A stretch of 64,000 nucleotides of DNA from Suillus spraguei (Eukaryota; Basidiomycota; Agaricomycetes; Boletales; Suillaceae), in the NCBI GenBank assembly GCA_016800925.1, contig JABCPU010000260.1:1-64000 (forward strand), written 5' to 3'. The notes under the pieces were generated by a model that made no database searches, had not been told where the DNA came from, and saw only the letters and a list, made by a program, of their open reading frames with translations. Made by a program: the position numbers and the translations under genes. Below, in pieces: positions 9,960-53,200 of the stretch. Each line of letters opens with the position of its first letter. Positions within the stretch are counted from its first letter, which is position 1.

Positions 9960-12642
<2,683 letters not shown>

Positions 12643-24128: not shown

Positions 24129-26214
24129 TCACAAATAGGTGGACGCCGTACCTTCCAACAGACGTTTCGCTTCCTCGGGGCCAATGTTCCTGGTTGCACG
24201 CCTAGCCAACAGTTTCTCCGTTCGGTATTTCTCGTACAGAACTTCGCGAGTATGTACCTTGAGAACCTGAGTGTTTCGTAGTTTCATCACTATATACAAT
24301 ATATCAACGGATTATTCACCTTCAAATGAGTCAACAGAATCGCTGTTCGGAAGGCGGCAAAGTCACAGTGGTCAGGGTTTAGTACGTCAATAGTCCCCCA
24401 TCTGAACTTTCTAGTGAACACGCCCCTGAGATCCTCTGGGGGACCTTGAAGAAAGACAGATTTGCGGACTACGGTGGGACTATCCGGGGAAATGGGCGTT
24501 TCTGCCTCAGGAGAAGAGGGCCCTGTCGCATCTCCCCGAGCGGAAAAGCTAGATTCAGGGCGAACCGGCTGTAGCCGTCTAATCCGCGGGGCACTTGCCT
24601 GTTCCGGAGCGATAAGCGCAAAGGGGAGTAACGCTGAGAGATCTGTTTTGGAGACAACATGAGCTGAGAAACGAATATTCGCTACGCTATCTTCTTCGGC
24701 GTCATCGGGATAACAGGGCTCTCTTTCATCCTGAACTACGGCGGACAGGTCACGACGAGAGCGGGAACGAGAACGGGAAGGCCGCGTCCCTTTCAGTGTG
24801 ATTACTGGACGTGAGGGGCGTCCCTTATTTTCATTATCATTTGCAACGTAAGAGCTCCCATTTTGGTGGCTGTCGCCGTTCCCACGATGACCATTTACTT
24901 CTCGTGGCAACGTCGTGGCGGCTTTATCGTCCGAGAGTGATTTGGGTGTGGGCGAGTCCGTCAGTTTGGGTGTGGAGAACACCCCAAAATCTAGTCCAGC
25001 TGACTTTAGGTCCCTGTGGACAGCTGCTTTCACCAATGACAACGTGTCATCCGTAAGTGAGTCCGCATGTGCAATAACAGGAAGCACGTTCACCCGTGCC
25101 GAAAGACGACGGATCACGCGAAGCTCAGCGGGGGACATTGCGAAGTCCCTGGAATATTCTTGATGGGGAATGGCTTCTGGGGTATCTCCGACGGTGGTAC
25201 GAGAAGCCGTGGTATTTGACCGGGCTCTGCCCGACATGGGGGACTGAACGGGAGGTGACGGTGACAATATAGACGATGGATCAACCATAAAGATACACCT
25301 AAGTCCAGAATTTTGAATCAATGGCTGTTAACATGACAAATTTCCTACAAGTGAACATGTTGATCCCCTTTAGTTTGACGGACGACTTTAGATTCCTATA
25401 TATCCATTCAGTAACGACTCTAAAAGAACAAGGTCGCGTGATATACCTCACTCATTGTATCTGCATATTGCGCGTCAAGATACTTGATCATCTCACTGAC
25501 CTGACGTTCGACCTGCAACTCGTGCCCGCCGCTGAAATCCAATCCGGGGGTGTCAATGACAGTCAGAAGCACTCGGTCATACCGCGACTCGCAAATCTCA
25601 ACACACGCCGTGTTAATTTGCTGTGTATGCTTCAGAGAACCATTTAAAAACCGGTCCAAGCCCACGCGCTGGTCTTCCGTCGCATTTGGTGACAAGTCTG
25701 CAGTTTCGAGAAGTAAACGCAACAACGAAGTTTTCCCCGTGCCTCTCGCTCCTACAACCTGATTGACGCGTCGTAGTTCAATCAGTTTTGGGATATCAAT
25801 GTGGTGACATACCATGAGGTTGAACGCAGGTGAAGCACGGTTTTTACGGTGGGATCGCCGTGATGATAATGCAGGAACGGTGCAAGATTTCCTATTACCG
25901 AACGCAGACGGGGGGTGAGACATATACATGGACGAAATCTTGCTGCCATTATCCGGCGGTTGTCCTGCAATTAACCGAAATGGTTTGTGGAATGGAATGG
26001 GGGCACGATCGGAGGAGGATATAGAGCTTTTGACCGCACCTTGCTTGGGATAATGTTCTAGCTCTGGACGGGGACTTTCGTGTATTACCGTGACATCTAC
26101 CAAGTTTTCCGGCCATGGAATGCCTTGAGAATGCAGTTCAGGCAAAGAGGGAGAGGTTTTTAGTGGTGACCCCGTGGAGTGTAGAGTTTGGGGTTTTCTG
26201 CGAAAAGAAAACAT
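24129..26214 (-). CDS. Septin-like P-loop GTPase
   Basis: A complete five-exon model keeps frame for 625 residues: exons 26214-25813, 25758-25447, 25395-25349, 25298-24320 and 24266-24129. The N-terminal 130 residues are low-complexity. The G domain opens FNLMVVGARGTGKTSLLRLL (Walker A GARGTGKT), a good match to septins (LMVVGxSGxGKS). G3 is DTPGLDF; G4 is AHAD in place of the septin AKAD. The short exon ESKVVRQTKGDQHVHL matches the septin ESKVRRN-type segment. A long insert with arginine/serine repeats separates G4 from the septin-like RWGTIDVLNPDHCDFAAFRT block. The tail lacks a long coiled coil. The intron 25759-25812 is 54 bases and stop-free, so it could be read through. It is a divergent relative, not one of the core septins. 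Likely binds GTP; role unknown. Confidence 0.8.
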
Positions 26215-26780: not shown

Positions 26781-29709
26781 TCAGGGTATAACATCCCCGG
26801 TGGTTTCGTCTACCCTCATTCTCTTTTGAATATGTGAAGGTTCCATGTCATCCATCTTTCTCTTCAGATCAACATCCATGGGCTCTCCTTGATTTTCCTC
26901 AGAGGATTTCCCAGCAGAATAACGAGAGTCGCCGACAACGGTCGACGAAGGAGGGGAATGGGATGGAGGTGACTGCACGGAGGGAAGATGTATTTGGGGG
27001 GCATTTGCCTTGGAGGTCGAGGCACGTCGAGTACCCTTTTTGTTCACGCCGTTCGTGCTGGAATCGTGGTTGTAGTTACATGGGAGGGATCTTCGCGCAC
27101 AGCTGGAGCAGGCTGGATGCGCTCCGTCGCACTTCGTCTTCCTCGCTAGATGGGATGGTTGAATGAGTCTAGCACAACATAATGCTTAAAAAACCAACCT
27201 CTGCAGAAGTTGCATGCCACTACTTTTGGACCGGTGCTGGCAGCGGGACGATTGCTTCTCCCAGGAACAGTGGACGCACGTTTTCGCTGAGCAGCCTGTT
27301 GCTCTGAGGCTGGTCTAATAGGCGGGAGCGGGGGGGCACTCATCGCAGCCGCAGGAGAGTTCTCGGGTAGCGACAGAGTCGCAATATGGGGTAACTCGTT
27401 GTCCTTGAACAACGTCCGTCCGTCGGAGACTCCTGAACTTCCTGTAGCTACGCCAGACTTAGGTCTAGGAGGCATATTGTGAAGACCTTCGCGGGGTTCT
27501 GATGGGCCAACGATGGCAGGAAAGCCATCCAGTATGGGCCGCTTATCGACAACGTTGGAGCTCCTGCGAGATAGTGGCTGGGAAACAATCTCGGGGGATA
27601 CCGAGGGATCGTTGTCTTCGGCGGATCGGTCTTCGCCACTCATCTCAGAGTCACTATCCTCTTTAGGTGGACGGTGAGGATTGCGCCGTTTGCTAGTCTG
27701 TGGCATATAATCGCAAACGTGGGACCGCTTGACACATTGGCTACAAGCAGGGCGTCCCCCATCGCATTTGAGTTTACGGGCTAGAGAGCGTCCTGAGTAT
27801 TGAATCCGCAAGGGAGGGCGGAGTCTACATACATCGACAGAAGTTGCATGCCACTGTGATCTTCTTAGTCCTCTGCTTGGAGGACCCTGTTGTTCAGGGT
27901 TAGCACAAATTTATCTGAGTGAGGACCCGACACTGGACTTACTCCCAGACGCTGTCTTGCCTTGAAGTTGTGAAGAAGCATCTGTCATCGGACGGGAAAG
28001 CGGTAGCCCGCGCAAATCCCCCCCAGGAGGAATGTCGCGGGCCATAGGAAGAGGGGGATGTCGGACAGAGCCATGACCTGGCTGAGTTTCAATAGTCAAA
28101 ACAGGGCGAGGAGCATGCGCTAGAGGTACAGAAGTACGCGGGACCGCTTGCTGTAGGGCATGGGGGTGAAGCTGGTGGTTACCAGAATGGTGCTGGATCA
28201 AGTATTCGTTTCTAAACTTTTCGAAAAGATATTCTCGAGTGTATTTCTGCAGCGTCTAGGGCGAGGGTCAGTTTTCATGGTGACATCAAAAGTCAGGCAA
28301 TTGGAGCACCTACCTCCATGTGATGAAATATAGCAGTGCGGAGCGGCACAAAGTCACTATGAACAGGATCTAGAACATCCATAGATCCCCACCGATAGCT
28401 TCTGATGAATTTGCCACGCGTCAGTTTAGAAGCGGTGTGACGAAGAATCACAGGAGTGTATTGCTGTACGAGTTCATGACGTGATAGGGGCACTCTCGCT
28501 ACGCCATCACTATGCGAGTAGATATCGGGCGAGATAAGAGCATATGGGAGTTTAAGAGGCGCCATTGCTGGAGAATTCGGAGGCGAAGGATGTCCATGCG
28601 GAGAAGTCTTATTCGCATGGCCGTTGTAACCATTCACCATTTCACTTTTTACAGGGTGCGCAGATTCGGCCGCGTCTTTACGGTGCGGGTACTGCGCATG
28701 GGAGTCCATATCGAAGATTCCGAAGCCAATGCCGGCTTCCGCAAGATCTCGGCGGACAGCCATTTTGACGGCTGCAAGGCGGTCGTTGGTAAGCGTGTCT
28801 GCGCGAGCTATTACAGGTAGCACATTGACTCTGGCAGAAAGCCGCCTGATGGTGTTAATTTCGCTAAGAGGAAGGGAAGGGCGGCATAGGAGTGGATTGT
28901 TGGTGACAGGGGGCTCGAGGATAACGGGCTCCGGCTCGGTGACGGAGAAGCTACTGCCCCGAGTACGAGTGACTAGAGGAGCAGGAGGACCTGGTACAGA
29001 AGGTGGAACAATTACGTCGGGATCCAAGAAGTATATACACCTGGTCCGTGGGTCAGTTCACAGTGACGCGGCGACTAAGCGCCCATGTCAGCAACGCACA
29101 AATGGATGTTGTTGTCACCAGCTGGGGATCTCCACTCCTGAACCGAAAGGACTGAGGTTGAATATGATGTAGGAAAGGAGTCTGCAAACTTACATCCTCG
29201 ATGCCATCGGCGAATCTGGATTCGACATGCCTGAGTATCTCATGAATAGCCCGCTCGGTGGAAGCTTCATCCTCGAACGTCAAAGAGGGTGTATCCACGA
29301 GCGTGAGAGTAAGGACCTGAGGTGTGCTATTTTGGTCAATATCATGTTCGATATTGATGGATGCGGTGCGTATGTGGGATGTATGACCACTGCAACCCTG
29401 TACGAACTTTGCGACGGAGGCGAGCTGGTCCTTGGTGGCTGTTGAGGAGATTTCACTGGTGTCCAAGAGAAGACGGAGAAATGAAGTCTTGCCGGTGCGC
29501 TGACCAGCAACCATGACTGTATAACCACTGAAGTTGTTTAAGCCATTGGGGTGAGGATCATGGCCGTTGCCAACTGTTCCGGGGACAAGACCGTTAGAGG
29601 AATATGAATGAGTGGCCCCTGGGACGGACTGAACGGAAGGAGGGATTGGGATACGGTCGTCGTCGTCCTTCATGATGCGTTGTTCGCCATTGTCGACGAC
29701 GAGCGGCAT
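26781..29709 (-). CDS. Septin-like G domain fused to a double Zn2Cys6 cluster protein
   Basis: Seven exons (29709-29194, 29137-29100, 29040-28314, 28255-27943, 27886-27833, 27780-27199, 27145-26781) form one frame of 864 residues, every junction with GT..AG and matching phase. Exons 1-3 and the start of 4 are homologous to the neighbouring septin-like gene: YTVMVAGQRTGKTS, VDTPSLTF, ARAD, RWGSMDVLDPVHSDFVPLRT, then KYTREYLFEKFRNEYL. Exon 4 runs on through 80 proline/histidine-rich residues into a GTAAGT donor. Exons 5-6 give the first zinc cluster (CNFCRSRKLKC, then CSQC and C), exons 6-7 the second (CNFCRARKTKC, then CSSC and C). Such clusters bind DNA. Walker A has Ala where Gly is usual and G3 is DTPS, so GTPase activity is doubtful. 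Alternative: two genes, with the G protein ending at 27911 by intron retention and the regulator starting inside exon 4 (ATG 28045). Confidence 0.65.
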
Positions 29710-30308: not shown

Positions 30309-31720
30309 TTACTCCCCGCCTCCCTCGGTCACCTCGTGTTCAACGTCTGTATCTACCTCTGACCTGCTCTCTTCTGCCTGTGAACCTCCTTGATCAAATA
30401 CACCGCTCATAAACTGATAGTGTGGGATTGCTTCCCCTTCTCCGTGATCCACGTTCGAAGCGCTCGGGCGATCACTGTAGGGCAGTGGCGCATAAACGGC
30501 CACTAACTGAGGGTGACCGTGACCTGGTAACATCAGCGGTGGATCAAATACATGCCGATCTGGGAGTCCTCCAGTTGAAGGCTGTTCAGATGCTTCTCCA
30601 TCAACTTCACTCGTAGCTGCTTTAGAACTTTTCCTCCCCTTTCGACCCTTCCCTTCTGATTTCTTCGATCCTTTTGGTGCCTTTCCAGGTCCACGACGTC
30701 TGGGATGATCTTTGTATACACATTTCAATGTTCGGGTGGAGCAATTCGCGCAGGAAGGTTTGGTCCCATCACATCGGAGCTTCCGTCCTGTAAAGTTAAT
30801 ACCAATTGAGGTGAAGTTCTTGAACAATCCCCGCACTCACCTCGGCAAAAATCACACGCGACATAGATTTTGCGCGCAACTTTCGTCTTCCTTTCATCCT
30901 GAGTGTCTGATCGCTTTCTCTTGCCTCGCTTATACGTCGGTCTTTCGTTACTGGACTCTTTGTCCTCCGCTGATACTTCTGCAGGCAAAATTTCCCCTGT
31001 CTGGTCATGTGAGGACGATTGTGGCCCTCTGTCGGAGTGCTCTTCCCTGAGCGGCTGCATGAATGTTCTTATTGGAGGGAGAGAATACGAGGACGCCCTC
31101 TGACTCAGGTGTTCATCTACCAACGTTCCTGGTATATGCCGACTGTTAGACGACCCAGACCGACTACGCTCCTCCCATCGTTCAGAAGGAAGTGAGTGAT
31201 GCCGTGTGATATTTGACTCAAGGTGATGCGAAGGCGGTTGTAGGTGACCTGACATCACATGATATTGATTTGGAAGCGGTGGGGGGTACGTATAGGAATG
31301 AATTGGATCATGTTGGTAGAAGGATAGCTCGCTGCCTGGAATTCGATTACCATGGGGTATTAAAAAAGCCCTAGTTGGGTGCGCGAAGCCAGCGGTCGCA
31401 CCTTCCCTCCGGCCAGCCGAGGTGTTTTGAACGCGTTGCGAACTATATCCACTCTCTTCTATATCTGGCGAGACTAATCTGTCGTGCGAAGACTCCCCTC
31501 GTGAGCCATGGCTGATTGGAAAGGACGCGGGACCCAATGACGATATAGATTGGAAAGTGAGGCGGGAAGCCTGTCGCTGGACGAGATGTCTGTCTTGGGC
31601 ACTCCATAACGCCTCGTCAGAACGTCCATTTAAATCGTTGGGGCGTATTATGTGTGCGTGTAATGTCTCTGGAAGCGAACTTGATAGCTTATCCTTATCG
31701 TCGTCATCTCTGTCATCCAT
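30309..31720 (-). CDS. Zn2Cys6 transcription factor with C-terminal zinc cluster
   Basis: Two exons (31720-30841 and 30787-30309) encode 452 residues, joined in phase 1 so that CDFCRG and RKLRCDG form the cluster. The six cysteines read CDFCRGRKLRC, then after six residues CANC and six more to C (residues about 290-320). A basic stretch precedes it (KRGKRKRSD) and one follows (PRRRGPGKAPKGSKK, GRKGRKSSK), which should aid nuclear import and DNA contact. The first 280 residues are serine-, histidine- and proline-rich, without a domain. The fungal-specific transcription factor middle domain is absent. The acidic end (EVDTDVEHEVTEGGGE) may activate transcription. The cluster resembles the two in the upstream neighbour, and all three genes from 24.1 to 31.7 kb point the same way. 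Target genes unknown. Confidence 0.85.
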
Positions 31721-32449: not shown

Positions 32450-34766
32450 ATGCATTCGAGACTCTCAGTTAGCAAGAACCTTGCAAGGCAAACCAGATCA
32501 CTATGGTCGTCTCCTGCAAGATGCGAAGACAAGCCCATCATGAACCGCTACAGCAGGACCGTCACGCAGCCCAAAGACCAAGGTGCAAGCCAAGTGAGTC
32601 ATTTGAGTCAGGCGAGGAATGTGGACTCTGGAGAAACTGATATTCGCAGGCTATGCTGTACGCTACTGAAGGTATCAAAGATGACGAGGATTTTCAAAAG
32701 GCCATGGTTGGCGTCGCTAGCGTATGGTGAGTGTCGAGGCAATCAAATTCCGCGGCCATTCCATTGACTACGATCAAGGTATGAGGGCAATCCGTAAGGA
32801 AGGACGTATGCCATAAATAGATTTGTTTTGACAAAGGTACTTTCAGATGCAATCGACACTTGCTTGGCTTGGGGCAGGAAATCAAGGGTTCCTTGGTCGA
32901 GTCTGGCCTCATTGGCTACCAGTTTGGTACAGTTGGTGTTAGCGATGGGATCAGCATGGGCACTGCGGGAATGTCTTATTCTCTGCAGTCGCGCGACCTT
33001 ATTGCAGATCAGGTAGAAACAGCTGCTGGCGGACACTGGTTGGATGGAATGGTTGTGGTACCAGGATGTGATAAGAATATGCCAGGTGTACTGATGGCTC
33101 GTGAGTGAGGAACTTGTTTAGATCCGCTATGCGCACTGATATGTTATAATGTTTGTATAGTTGGACGACTTAACCGTCCGGGTCTTATGGTGTACGGAGG
33201 CACGATTCGCGCAGGCTCATGCGCGGGCCAACCTCAGCTAGATCTTGTTTCCGCATTCCAGGCATATGGACAATACCTACAAGACGGAAAGACACCAGAA
33301 GCAGAAGCCCTCAGGTATGAGACAGTGCGACATGCATGCCCTGGGCCAGGTGCTTGTGGAGGCGTTAGTACCAATGTTCCCAATTCAGCGACAGTTTGTT
33401 CATATATTGATAGATGTATACGGCGAACACCATGGCCAGTGCAGCTGAAGCCCTTGGAATGACTCTGCCTGGTTCTTCATCATATCCAGCCGAATCTCAA
33501 GAAAAACACGATGAATGTAAGAGCGTTGGCGCCGCCATGCGAAATCTCATCGAGAAAAACATTCTGCCCCGCGACATCATGACGCCTTCGGCATTTGAGA
33601 ACGCTATGGTATGCCATGCCTTTTTTCAATTTTGACGGCTACTCATACCAAGTTTTAGGTTCTTACTATGATTTTAGGAGGTTCGACAAATGCCGTGCTC
33701 CATCTTATTGCTATGGCACACGCCGTAGGCATCAAGCTTACCATTGATGACTTCGCACGAGTGTCTGAGTCAACACCCTTCCTCGCTGACATCAAACCAA
33801 GTGGCAAGTATGTCATGGAAGACATCTACAAAATTGGTGGCATACCCAGTCAGTAATCCAATTACCGTGGTCATGCACATATTCACAGGTTTTTTTTAAC
33901 TACAGAGATACTTCATTTCTTGTTGAAAAATAATTTTATTGACGGCAACAACATGACTGTCACTGGCGCTACTGTAGGGGAGAACTTGGAACGTTGGGTA
34001 CATAAACATGGGGAACTTTCCGCTAGTCAGGACGTGATCCGTCCCCTTGACAAGCCAATTAAAGCTACTGGACACATCAGGTTCGTCGTTGCCATCTTTC
34101 AATAGCTCTTTTCTCAAATAACCCTAGAATTTTGCGTGGTAATTTGGCTCCTGGAGGTGCTGTTGCCAAGATTACTGGCAAGGAAGGTCTCGGGTTTACC
34201 GGAAAAGCTCGCACCTTCGACTCTGAAGAGGCTTTTGTTTCCGCCGTTGAGTCTGGCTCGATCAAAAAAGGTGAAAAAACAGTTGTCGTCATGCGTTATC
34301 TCGGCCCTAAGGGTGGCCCTGGTAAGTGAATATTATCTTTATGGTAATATTAATGTACGGACTATGCAGGTATGCGTGAGATGTTGAAACCCACTAGCTT
34401 AATCATGGGCGCTGGCCTTGGTCAGGATGTCGCGTGCCTCACAGACGGACGATTTAGTGGAGGGTTTGTGCCATTTCCTTTCACAGTAATTTGTATACTG
34501 ATGGGATTTCTAGATCTCATGGGTTTTGTATAGGCCACGTCGTCCCTGAAGCCCAGGTCGGTGGACCTATTGCGCTTGTGGAGGATGGTGACACCATTTC
34601 TGTCGATGCTGTGGCAAACACCATGGAATTGCATATCTCCTCTGAGGAGATGGAACGCCGTCGGAAAGCCTGGGTTGCCCCACCGATCAAGGTCACCCAA
34701 GGCACGCTGTACAAGTATGTTAAAATGGTCAAGGACGCCAGCCATGGATGTATCACAGATGGTTAA
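32450..34766 (+). CDS. ILV3: Dihydroxy-acid dehydratase, mitochondrial
   Basis: Third shared step of valine and isoleucine synthesis: removes water from 2,3-dihydroxy acids to give 2-keto acids, using an iron-sulfur cluster. The first 25 residues ([19 protein letters not shown]) are basic and hydroxylated, as in a mitochondrial targeting sequence. Then come [53 protein letters not shown] and cluster cysteines in [10 protein letters not shown] and CPGPGACGG. Later exons give [72 protein letters not shown] and [15 protein letters not shown], ending [16 protein letters not shown] at the TAA 34764-34766. About ten short introns. All conserved blocks are present. Ends only 83 bases from the end of the convergent RIO1 gene. 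Confidence 0.95.
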
Positions 34767-34849: not shown

Positions 34850-36878
34850 TTAGTGTCCTCGCGAGCTTTTTGTTTTGCGTTTCTTCTCTGCCTTTGGGAT
34901 TTTGGTTTTGCGTTTCTCACGTGCTTCGGTTTTGACAGCCTTTTTGCGTTCCTGAATGAAAATCAGCAATGGTTAGTTTCTGATAGAGCGATGCTCGCCT
35001 TCTTGGCCTCCCGATCTTCGTGCCTGTGGCCCCTAGGTTTGCGAGGGTCGAAGACATCCTTCTGGCCTGCCTCAGCTGCCCCAGGTTCTTCACTCCCTTC
35101 TTCCTCGCTATCGCTCGTGTACTCGCCTCCGTCATCGAGGTCCCCATCCTCCAAAGATCCCTCGCCCCTGAAGTGCACATGCGGCCTGACCTTGCCATCC
35201 TGGCTTACACCGGAGGTAGGATGCGTCAAACCTATTGTTTCTGCGTAGATCAGGTTTTTCCCATCACCTTTCGTCAAAACCTCCACGTCGCGTTCAGCGT
35301 CGTATACCTCATTCAGCGTGCGGGGGATGTATGACTGAAGGAAAATATTGTCTTCATGAGTACTTGATGTGTTCGATGAGGTGATCTTGTTATTGCTTCC
35401 GTCCATAGATGGGGAGCTTTGTTGTTCTTCTGTCAGCCAGTGCTTCAAAGCGGATCCTTCGTCCTGCCCCTCCTCGACCACATGCACTCTCGTAATGAAA
35501 TCGAAGCATCGCCTCAAACCTAGGCACTTTACCCCAAACCTCTCGAAAAAGTCCTCGATATTCTTGATATCACTCCTGAGGAAGTCGAATGCGCTGGGAT
35601 GATCGTGCTCTACGGACTGCGAGACGTCGATAATGCAGAGATGTCCACCGTGAAAGAGAATATTGTATTCGGAAAGATCCGCATGAACAAGTTTGCAAGT
35701 GTGATACATCTTCCGGACATTGAGAATGAGCTCTTCGTACAAGGCTGGGTATAATGCAGAGGGGATATCGGCGTCCTTTAAGCGAGGGGATGCCCTGGCG
35801 TGGATGAGCGATAGAAGGGACTTCAGTGTAACAAAAAATATTACCAGCCCTCCTCATCACCGAGAAAACTCATTACCAAGATATTTTCCCGAACCTCCAT
35901 AGGCTCGGGGCATGGTATCCCGGCAGACACAAGTCTCTTGAGATTCCGCATTTCCTTCTCCGCCCACAAACGTACCATTTTGCGTGGGTTGCGTCTACTA
36001 TAGCCACGTCTGAAGCGATACTCGCCAGTCACATAACGATCGCGGTCCTTGAACACAAGAATTGATGTCTTGTATATTTTGAGTGCAATATGCGTGGCGG
36101 TAGGGGTGAGAGCATGATAAACATTTGCCTAAACACTCTCAGGCTTGTATGTAAAAGTGTCAAGATAAACCCAGATGACCTCACCTCCTTTCCTGCACTA
36201 ACACATCCATTTACCTCCTGGATGAGTTCTCGTCCGATCATCTTGAAAAGGATAATCCGAGTGCGAGGATCAAGTACTTGCTCAGATGTGGCGCGATCTG
36301 ACTTGTCCTTCGCGTTTGCATATGAACTAGGGCCTTTTCTATTCACGCTGGCGCCCATGACATACGGTTGATCGATTTTAGCAATGCGAGACGAGTACTT
36401 GGAGAGAGCAGCAAGTTGATCGGCAGTTTTGTCTTTTGCATGCGCAGGAATCGCACTACGTGGCTTATTTACCGCAGGAAGAGGAGCGACGACAGCTGTG
36501 CGATTAATGGAGGATGTGATTCCCTGTACGTTGCCAGTGCGCACAGCGACATGCTGCCGAAGCCGGTTATATTGTTTAGTAAAATCTAGAATGATCAAAC
36601 AACGGTTGTCGTTGGAACGAATACAACTCACCCCGTTCTGCGACCTCCCAATCCTCATCATCTGCTCTGACATCCTCAAAGTCATCTTCGTTTAGCTCGT
36701 CTTTGTCATTATCATTTTCTTCCGAGCTTTCGTCAGACCATAGAGAAAGGTGTTCATCGTCAATGAAGTATCCGCCTATACGTGGATTTCGTTGGTCATC
36801 CACGACTTGGACAGTTGCATCCGAAGGAGCGTCGTCAAACTGCCCCTCCACGATAACTGACTGGTTTTCTGCAGACAT
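34850..36878 (-). CDS. RIO1: RIO1 atypical serine kinase/ATPase
   Basis: Acts late in cytoplasmic maturation of the small ribosomal subunit, including 20S pre-rRNA cleavage. The first exon (from 36878) is acidic ([21 protein letters not shown]). Next comes [22 protein letters not shown] sequence and [20 protein letters not shown], followed by the flexible-loop motif SAGKE-ANVYHA, split by the intron at about 36100-36185. The RIO core continues with [55 protein letters not shown] and [12 protein letters not shown]. The catalytic loop is [12 protein letters not shown] and the metal-binding [13 protein letters not shown], both intact (35590-35700). The tail is acidic, then lysine-rich ([19 protein letters not shown]), ending at the TAA 34850-34852. 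It is head to head with the membrane protein gene, 166 bases away. Confidence 0.95.
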
Positions 36879-50227: not shown

Positions 50228-53200
50228 TCAATTCTCAATCTGATCTCTAAGTCCTCTCAGCACTTCTGTATACACCACATTGGTCGTCTTTGACCCTTCT
50301 TCATGCTCTGGAAAGATAGCACACACACTCTCTGGGTGAGTGCACCTGGACAATGCCACATACAGCTGTCCATGACTGAACACAGGAGTTCTCAAATCCA
50401 GTCCAACCCACTTCACACTTTGACCTTGAGCCTTGTTGATTGTCATAGCAAATGCAAGACGGACAGGAAATTGTCGATGCTTTAGAGGAATTGGGTTGTC
50501 TTCAGTAGTGGCATCCAGAGTCATCCTGGGGATCAGCACTGTGTCCTGATTGTCTTGCTGGGCTTCATCAACTCCATCTTTGAGAATCCGACATTTGAGT
50601 ACATGTGTGGTCCAAGACAGAAGGATCATCCTGGTTCCATTGTAGAGGCCATTGGTGGGATCCAAGTTGCGCAACAGCATCAGAGGAACACCCACTTTGA
50701 GTTCCAATTTGTGCAAAGGGAACCCTGATGGTGTCAGAGTGTGAAGGAACTCATGAGGGATATAGTCATAGTCCCTCTCAGCAACTGAGTCTGCACTGGT
50801 GAACACTGCTTTTTCTCCAGAGAATAATTCAAGAATGTTGGCATTGATTTCATCCACATCAGTGTTCTTTGCAGAGAGGATGGTACGTTCCAGGAAGAAG
50901 GAATCATTCACAGGAGGATGGTCAGGAAGCAGGATAGGAGAGTAGAGGGCATTGATGAGAGACTGGACACTATTGTTGGCACAGCACATATGAATTGGAA
51001 GGACCACTGTTCCATCAGCATGTGTGTTCTTTCCAGCTCCAATCTCCAGAAGCCACTTGGCAAATTCATCAGAGGCAGGGTCTTGACCAAGGCGCATGTT
51101 TGTCTTGAGATGGAAGATCTGAAGCCTTGGCCAGATGCGAGATCTGCAGAAGGTAGCACCCACTATCTGCTCCCTGGATCCATGAGCCACCACTGGTAGA
51201 GTCTGTCTGAAGTCTCCTCCAAAATCAGCATCAACATTGAGAAGGTCGCGCAATGAGCGGTCAAGGCATTCCAGATTGTGACGGTGTAGCATTGGAATTT
51301 CATCACAGATGATAAGGGAGGTGGCCTTCAGAAGCTCATGCACAACATCTCCTTTCTTGATGTTGCAGGAGCTGTCTTCATTGATGGGGATTGGAATCTT
51401 GAATCGCGAATGAGCTGTATGTCCACCTGGCAGGAGGAGAGAAGCAATTCCAGAGGAAGCCACACATAGAACAATCTTGCCTTCAGCACGGAGTTTTGAG
51501 GCAATGAGCTTGCAGAGATATGTCTTGCCACATCCACCTGCACTGTGGACAAAGAATGCATGTCCAGGTGTCTGCTCATTTCTTTGCATGGCATCATTGA
51601 CCACTGCATCAAAGACTGTCCTCTGCTCCTGATTGAGAGAAAGCACTCCTGGATCCACCATCTGCTGGAGCTCCTCCTGGTTATACTGGAGCTGCTCAGC
51701 AATGAGCTGATTTCCCTGCATGACCCCCCATCTTGCTGCCATTTGAGGTATAGGCATCTGAGGAATCACTTGCAAAGACTTTCCATTTTTGTGAAGCTTT
51801 CCATCAATGAGATAGAGACCATAGTCATAGACCTCTTCATTTGTGGGGTTGGGAATGTTGAATGGGGCATGAGACAGGTGATGATGCAGATCATCACAGA
51901 GATTGTCCTTGAATTGGTTCCAAAGATCACTGGGGTCTGTAGGGTTGCAGTGGATGAGGATGATGGCAAAGAGATTGCGCATGCCATGTCCAGTGCTCAT
52001 GTGAGAGGCATCCTGCAAGCATTGGATCCATTCATTGTCATCCTCAAGCAGACCTCTACGTCGACATGCCTCCTTGAAAGTGTCATATAAAACATCATTA
52101 ACTGTTTGAAGGTTCTCATAGGAGGTGGCCCCTTGAATACATTGTGAGTTTGATTGATGAAAATTGACATGAGCATCATACCTTTTACTACAGTTAGAAG
52201 CAATCTCAGGTAGAAGCGCTCTCCAGATCCAGGTGCAGCAGAGTACATCCTTCCAATGGCCATTCCACGTTGTTGTACCTTTCATGCGGTCTTATTCCAT
52301 ACGAATTTTGAGGGGAAGTCCTGGTAGAGGTGGTCATGGGCTCCAGCTGCCACCAAGACATTGTTGGCATTGGCTTTGAACCATCCAGTAAGGCAAGTCT
52401 CCTTGGTTGCTGCATGCTCAAGAACATCCTGGGCATCATCCTCAGGATCATAAAACACCATGTGTTCATTTGGAAGGTGGACTGGCAGACGGTAGACAGA
52501 GGGCCATTCAAGGTGCATTCCAAACTCAAAGATGTGCCATGCAGCCTCAGTGGAGCTGATGTATCTGGAGTCAAGGTAGGTTTTGACCTCATCCACTGGT
52601 CCTGGCATCTCCAAAGTGGCATGGTCATTTCCCTTGTAGATGTACTTGTGGATGTATTTCACAGACTTGATGGAAGCGCAGACTTCAAGATTGATGTGGC
52701 AGTTGAACTCCACCAGGAGTTATGGAGGATGAGGAACAACATCCTTGTTGGTGAAGACAGTGTTATTCTTCTGGACAGTGCGACCATTGTCAGGTCTTGC
52801 ATACTCTGGATAGCCATCCTCCTTCATCAATGTCTGGGCACAGAAAGACTTTGGAAAGTGCTTTTTGCAATGTCCATTCTCCAAGCAACGTTCTGGAGAG
52901 CAGGGGCCATGAAGCATGTATTTCTCCACAGCCTCATAGAGTTGGGGATGGACATTTCTATCAGGGATCTGGGCAGAGATGAAGGAGTCTATCTGTTCCA
53001 CAGTGCGAATCTTGTGGTCTGGATCCAGGAAGATGAGAAGGTGCATGTGAGGCAGACCACACTTTTGATATTCAATGGTGTACACCAATCCTGCAACCTT
53101 GCCATAGTAGCCTTTGCGAACTTTCTTCAGCAGGCCTGCTGCTTTTGATAGAATACGCGAGCCACCAAGTCTGGAGGTCCACAGCAGTTTGACCTACATA

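Follow-up and report, generated by a model that had tools for sequence, protein, structure and literature searches.

Does a gene model that reads in frame from a septin-type GTPase domain (G domain) into two Zn2Cys6 zinc clusters describe a single protein, or have two neighbouring genes been joined? The model lies in a 64,000-nucleotide (nt) stretch of Suillus spraguei DNA (GCA_016800925.1, contig JABCPU010000260.1, positions 1-64,000 of the forward strand), referred to here as the window, where its coding span occupies 26781..29709 on the minus strand. An initial annotation of the window had proposed one gene and one protein, and we have very little doubt that this is correct. The fusion gene represents a real, widely conserved and vertically inherited family of Agaricomycetes.

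Gene structure of the fusion

The splice model comprises seven exons (29709-29194, 29137-29100, 29040-28314, 28255-27943, 27886-27833, 27780-27199 and 27145-26781) that sum to 2595 nt, or 865 codons including the stop, and encode 864 residues; identity to homologues supports the span as a whole. All six introns are 52-59 nt long with GT..AG boundaries and matching phases, which bears out the exon count, splice sites, phases and length first assigned to the gene. Exons 1-3 (28314..29709, on the minus strand like the rest of the gene) encode the greater part of the septin-type G domain recognized by Pfam, preceded by a short N-terminus that is not basic. Exon 4 (27943..28255) supplies the last G-domain helix (TLQKYTREYLFEKFRNEYL), located by alignment with the last exon of a neighbouring septin-like gene, and continues into a linker. 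The initial annotation was right that this exon runs on past the helix; its figure of 80 further residues is low, as the splice model gives approximately 85 of the 104 residues in exon 4. The disputed junction is intron 4 (27887..27942, 56 nt, GTAAGT..CTAAC..CAG), and the exon boundary at 27943|27886, the GTAAGT donor and the CTAAC ahead of the next acceptor are all as originally described. Exon 5 (27833..27886) begins zinc cluster 1 (VACNFCR), exon 6 (27199..27780) holds the remainder of that cluster, linker B (NELPHIATLSLP...RPASEQQAAQRKRASTVPG) and the start of cluster 2, and exon 7 (26781..27145) completes cluster 2 and adds a C-terminal tail with a basic KRMR.

In the frame of exon 5, stop codons lie inside intron 4 just ahead of the acceptor, and no ATG is found from these stops to cluster 1. 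A separate zinc-cluster gene would therefore need a start inside exon 4 or further upstream.

Conservation of the fused protein

Searching with the whole model returned 214 proteins at E <= 0.001, and each of the best 120 carries both domains. The top homologue, P0001 of Suillus paluster, is 90% identical over 100%. A second search, whose query was a long merged homologue and which is thereby limited to candidates of about 817 residues or longer, gave 79 proteins, all 79 with both domains. The two lists overlap and together contain 143 distinct proteins. These co-linear homologues exclude chance as the source of the fused reading, and contradict the possibility, raised with the initial annotation, that the homologues are always two genes. 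Taking the order of one species each for eight species, the family extends over at least eight orders of Agaricomycetes (Boletales, Agaricales, Atheliales, Jaapiales, Russulales, Polyporales, Gloeophyllales and Corticiales). Judging by genus name, the named matches among those listed are presumably all Agaricomycetes. Schizophyllum commune (P0138) and Coprinopsis cinerea (P0061) each have a member. Two Marasmius proteins (P0142 and P0143) are strongly diverged, with 30-31% identity to the Panaeolus query and a diverged G domain, and P0142 has a very long low-complexity linker between its clusters.

Distances calculated for the G half and the zinc half of 63 homologues are strongly correlated (Mantel r 0.80, reached by 0 of 999 permutations). 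This correlation speaks for vertical inheritance and not for the fusion itself, because two separate genes would share the species tree too.

The exon junctions were checked in 24 homologues, mostly from short contigs, at all six positions. Twelve intron-free homologous open reading frames (ORFs) cross exon 4|5. Five of these (P0022, P0055, P0085, P0131 and P0140) span all six junctions and have no more than three residues inserted close to any one junction, three (P0144, P0148 and P0150) span junctions 3-6, and four (P0145, P0146, P0149 and P0161) span junctions 4-6. The other twelve stop short of exon 4|5, and in four of these junction 6 carries an additional 18-22 residues. Another twelve short proteins mostly end at the start of an intron, for example in ...VACNFCRG followed by translated intron. 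We infer from their sequences that the intron-free ORFs are complementary DNA (cDNA) contigs. Some details weaken the case from these junctions: in P0161 ten additional residues lie close to junction 4, P0149 includes no more of exon 4 than its final residues, and the proposed cDNA origin is drawn from short contigs and the absence of introns, not from read mapping.

A rival reading is that the model merges two adjacent genes, one septin-like and one with a double zinc cluster. Exon 4 is open into intron 4 and ends there at an in-frame stop, and merging does occur in such genomes, since 7 of the 17 homologues longer than 895 residues are joined to a true neighbour (the other ten show none). 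A Grifola protein begins at the last G-domain helix, and a few annotated proteins, such as two from Termitomyces and one from Tricholoma (280-283 residues), consist of the zinc half only. The Termitomyces and Tricholoma models, however, begin after cluster 1, and the other short proteins read stem from exon 6 only or run on into an intron. The zinc half was also used by itself as a query, with candidates capped at a length below that of an intact fusion; this gave 169 matches, of which 120 were listed, and 26 of these sequences were read and a further 11 aligned. No clear stand-alone double-cluster gene was seen among the 26. They are pieces of exon 6 or of read-through into introns, incomplete ORFs lacking introns, models that are split or truncated, an Artomyces protein in which the fusion is retained and a Suillus lakei copy that has degraded. 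PF00735 is still present in four of the 120. Together with the uniformly fused homologues, the twelve ORFs that cross exon 4|5 and the lack of a conserved internal methionine in exon 4, this leaves a two-gene split exceedingly improbable and close to refuted already. Alternatively, besides the full chain a single gene might produce a zinc-only isoform, shortened by a start within exon 4, and this form would be the one that controls genes. In-frame ATGs do exist within exon 4, some methionine lies within 150 alignment columns of cluster 1 in 53 of 63 homologues, and a 244-residue Suillus lakei protein (P0224) begins at one of the exon 4 methionine positions and has cluster 1 intact and cluster 2 disrupted. 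Yet the two methionine columns of the reference exon 4 hold methionine in just 7 and 26 of the 63 homologues, linker A is poorly conserved, and P0224 looks like a degraded copy, perhaps a degrading zinc-only second one. We consider such an isoform quite unlikely.

A septin-type G domain with eroded motifs

Pfam matches PF00735 (Septin) to the fusion protein in three stretches (E 5.1e-33). The protein has the septin G-domain fold by prediction and the septin unique element, as expected of a member of the septins. The GTP-binding motifs of septins are G1 GxxxxGK[ST], G3 DxxG and G4 AKAD. The corresponding motifs of the model, in exons 1-3, are AGQRTGKT, DTPS and ARAD, accompanied by the WG of the septin unique element.

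Across the family the intact set of G1, G3 and G4 is missing. Motifs were scored in 63 homologues chosen from the best 120 of 214, with most merged or truncated models left out, and in a wider set of the 143 distinct proteins, 141 once the two unreadable for each motif are removed. The P-loop of G1 is one residue shorter in the fusion protein, and alanine replaces the usual first glycine in 62 of the 63 homologues; the P-loop lysine is kept in all 63. The G3 glycine is absent throughout (0/63 and 0/141). A first pattern count had found DTPG in 6 of 121 sequences, a result rejected once more sequence context was taken into account; the cases P0015, P0040 and P0062 reflect a wrongly modelled N-terminus or a merged neighbour. 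At G4 the lysine remains in three of the 63, with arginine in 55 and the aspartate in all. The tryptophan of WG is invariant over the same 63 rows. The term "nucleotide-sensing", used for this domain in the initial annotation, is thus doubtful, as all three motifs are eroded family-wide.

Comparison with the septins (Cdc3/10/11/12, AspE and animal SEPT; PF00735) gives a mixed picture. The predicted fold, septin unique element, WG and C-terminal helix are common to both, whereas the fusion family has a shortened P-loop, lacks the G3 glycine and mostly the G4 lysine, and carries two inserts within the G domain. A polybasic stretch before the G domain is a septin feature according to the available text of Auxier et al. 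2019 (PMC6323724). In the fusion protein about 60 residues precede the first strand and, by eye, contain no basic run; a long helix after the G domain is also missing, and zinc clusters are present. One family-specific insert, PPAPLV.R.R..SFS..EPVILEPPVT.NPLL.RP (P0001 residues 201-243, exon 3 in the window), is as conserved as the G core. The serine after its basic residues is a possible docking or phosphorylation site, to go by the sequence.

Two Gal4-type zinc clusters

The C-terminal half matches PF00172 (Zn_clus) in two stretches (E 2.1e-19). Both clusters read C-X2-C-X6-C-X6-C-X2-C-X6-C, with R-x-R-K ahead of the third cysteine, and conform to the Zn2Cys6 pattern C-X2-C-X6-C-X5-12-C-X2-C-X6-8-C. 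A pattern count that allowed a middle spacer of 5-16, made on the model and the best 120 of 214 homologues (121 sequences), found two clusters in 106, one in 12 and three in 3. The three-cluster sequences contain a merged neighbour, and the single-cluster cases P0008 and P0015 look like local gene-model errors. The cysteine spacing and the basic R-x-R-K stretch of both clusters are invariant or nearly so across the homologues, and the clusters have the highest conservation of all pieces of the protein (0.86 and 0.82, compared with 0.36 for linker A). In a profile search of the PDB, the cluster region pairs with GAL4, HAP1 and PUT3.

Resemblance to the Gal4-type Zn2Cys6 regulators (PF00172) lies in the cluster spacing and the basic contact stretch. 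The fusion protein differs from them in having two C-terminal clusters approximately 190 residues apart with a septin-type G domain in front. It also gives no Pfam match up to E 0.1 to Fungal_trans (PF04082), which is common but not universal in this class; nothing beyond Septin and Zn_clus was found in that scan. In Pleurotus ostreatus Fungal_trans occurs in 43 of 66 zinc-cluster members, according to the available text of PMC7295025.

Proposed function

Considering these features, we favour on balance a DNA-binding regulator in which a septin-derived, probably non-cycling G domain serves as a pairing module. That the protein is a nuclear DNA-binding regulator appears likely from its sequence; pairing through the G domain is a more tentative element, to which we would give somewhat less than even weight. 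In the proposed mechanism, a single 864-residue chain would place the septin-type G domain ahead of the two Gal4-type clusters, and the septin-derived domain would replace the coiled coil of ordinary zinc-cluster proteins. Two such chains, or one chain and the neighbouring septin-like protein, would pair through it, and several clusters could in this way be offered to half-sites of the CGG type. With G1, G3 and G4 all altered, the G domain would probably act as a scaffold and not as a cycling switch, binding nucleotide weakly or in one fixed state. Two considerations pull the other way. The G4 lysine is kept in 13 of 141 proteins of the wider set which, with the retained P-loop lysine, suggests that some members may still bind nucleotide, and the ligand of the clusters could be protein or RNA rather than DNA.

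The septin fold with its unique element and invariant WG tryptophan would also suit a transcription factor that is switched by nucleotide or tethered to septin filaments, docking through the G domain at the septum or cortex and released to the nucleus with the cell cycle. The invariant P-loop lysine means that nucleotide may still bind, but the G3 glycine is missing from 63 of 63 homologues and the G4 lysine from 60 of 63, the P-loop is one residue shorter, and the protein has neither a polybasic stretch ahead of the G domain nor a long helix behind it, which makes this reading unlikely. A further possibility is a structural or cytoskeletal protein whose clusters are not used for DNA; in its favour, many Zn2Cys6 regulators carry Fungal_trans and the fusion protein, up to E 0.1, does not. 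We regard such a protein as very unlikely, given that both clusters keep their cysteine spacing and the basic R-x-R-K.

Locus and origin

Downstream of the fusion gene lies the septin-like neighbour (24129..26214, minus strand, five exons, 625 residues), a tandem paralogue of the G half. The two are 36% identical (110/302) and share three intron positions in the same phases (0, 2, 0). Homology between the C-terminal G-domain helix and the end of this neighbour, pointed out in the initial annotation, is clear at 29 of 56 positions (52%). Among the septin loci compared within the same genome, the neighbour is the closest to the fusion gene (best piece 74 bits versus at most 46 bits). In contrast to the fusion, its P-loop (GARGTGKT) and DTPG are regular, and it ends within approximately 30 residues past the helix, without clusters. 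Its G4 reads AHAD; three merged database models of this gene have GHAD or AHAD.

Upstream, a single-cluster Zn2Cys6 gene (30309..31720, minus strand, two exons, 452 residues) has its intron at the same cluster site as exons 5|6 and 6|7 of the fusion gene. Clusters 1 and 2 agree at 22 of 32 positions, and each agrees with the upstream cluster at 18 of 32. The merged homologues reproduce this arrangement: a single-cluster-like protein is joined N-terminally in P0008 (Lanmaoa), P0021, P0039 (Amanita phalloides) and P0086 (Mycena kentingensis), and a septin-like protein, 50-54% identical to the neighbour in the window, C-terminally in P0015, P0017 (Tephrocybe) and P0056 (Panaeolus). The septin-like gene thus adjoins the fusion gene in three other species. 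The sequences suggest that the fusion may have originated within the locus, when the septin-like gene duplicated in tandem and exons for zinc clusters were captured.

A 15.8 kb contig of the same assembly, C133, repeats the locus at 99.3% and is probably an unpolished haplotig. Over the fusion gene it differs from the window by three substitutions (two synonymous, one intronic) and eleven one-base gaps or insertions. The latter were read as assembly noise, so C133 was dropped as an independent haplotype test and neither supports nor weakens the reading frame. Searched for the zinc-cluster family, the window gives matches at the upstream gene and at each of the fusion's two clusters, and C133 gives matches at two sites.

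Elsewhere in the genome, a septin copy with in-frame stops (C1080:50068-50625) resembles the septin on C295 and C1194, and an adjacent ORF looks, by eye, like a Tc1/mariner-type transposase. The window also contains a PIF1-like helicase ORF of 687 codons (50231-52291, minus strand), perhaps part of a Helitron-type element, as well as matches to WW and HECT domains (10425-12541, plus strand), RIO (34966-35853, minus strand) and an IlvD-type dehydratase (33414-33635, plus strand).

Discussion

The initial annotation held that no protein joining a septin-type GTPase to Zn2Cys6 clusters had been described. One has: a genome-wide list devotes a single sentence to PoZCP55 of Pleurotus ostreatus, which it credits with septin domains and, at the C-terminus, two zinc clusters (Hou et al. 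2020, PMC7295025). It shares with the fusion protein three PF00735 matches (three stretches in our model) as well as the paired C-terminal clusters, and on this architecture it is probably the orthologue. In the accessible text of that paper, gene structures were corrected by RNA sequencing reads and only PoZCP14 is named as unexpressed; it says nothing about G-motif erosion, how widely the family occurs or which genes flank it.

Surveys sort proteins by domain, which may be why the family has escaped notice. The septin survey of Auxier et al. 2019, which included Schizophyllum, kept candidates without conflicting domains such as 'DNA_binding', a filter by which the fusion family may have been dropped, and its authors state in the portion available that overlooked novel diversity cannot be excluded (PMC6323724). 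The word 'zinc' does not occur in the searched text of Pan et al. 2007 (PMC1931588) or Delic et al. 2024 (PMC11238149), and no functional study of the family was found in open-access text. The family is barely described and almost unstudied.

A bolder proposal from the same sequences, which we think rather unlikely as a whole, is that these proteins represent an ancient type of regulator in mushrooms, with a former septin as the assembly domain of a transcription factor. The degenerate G domain would pair with the regular one of the neighbour, and the nucleotide or assembly state of the pair would decide whether at least four clusters are presented to DNA, so that septin biology (septation, growth of dikaryon or stipe cells) would feed straight into gene control.

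Septins are regarded as part of the cytoskeleton. A domain derived from them that has become a fixed part of a zinc-cluster protein in eight or more orders of Agaricomycetes would give the septin fold a second role. As the tractable mushrooms Schizophyllum commune and Coprinopsis cinerea both have members, its role is directly testable.
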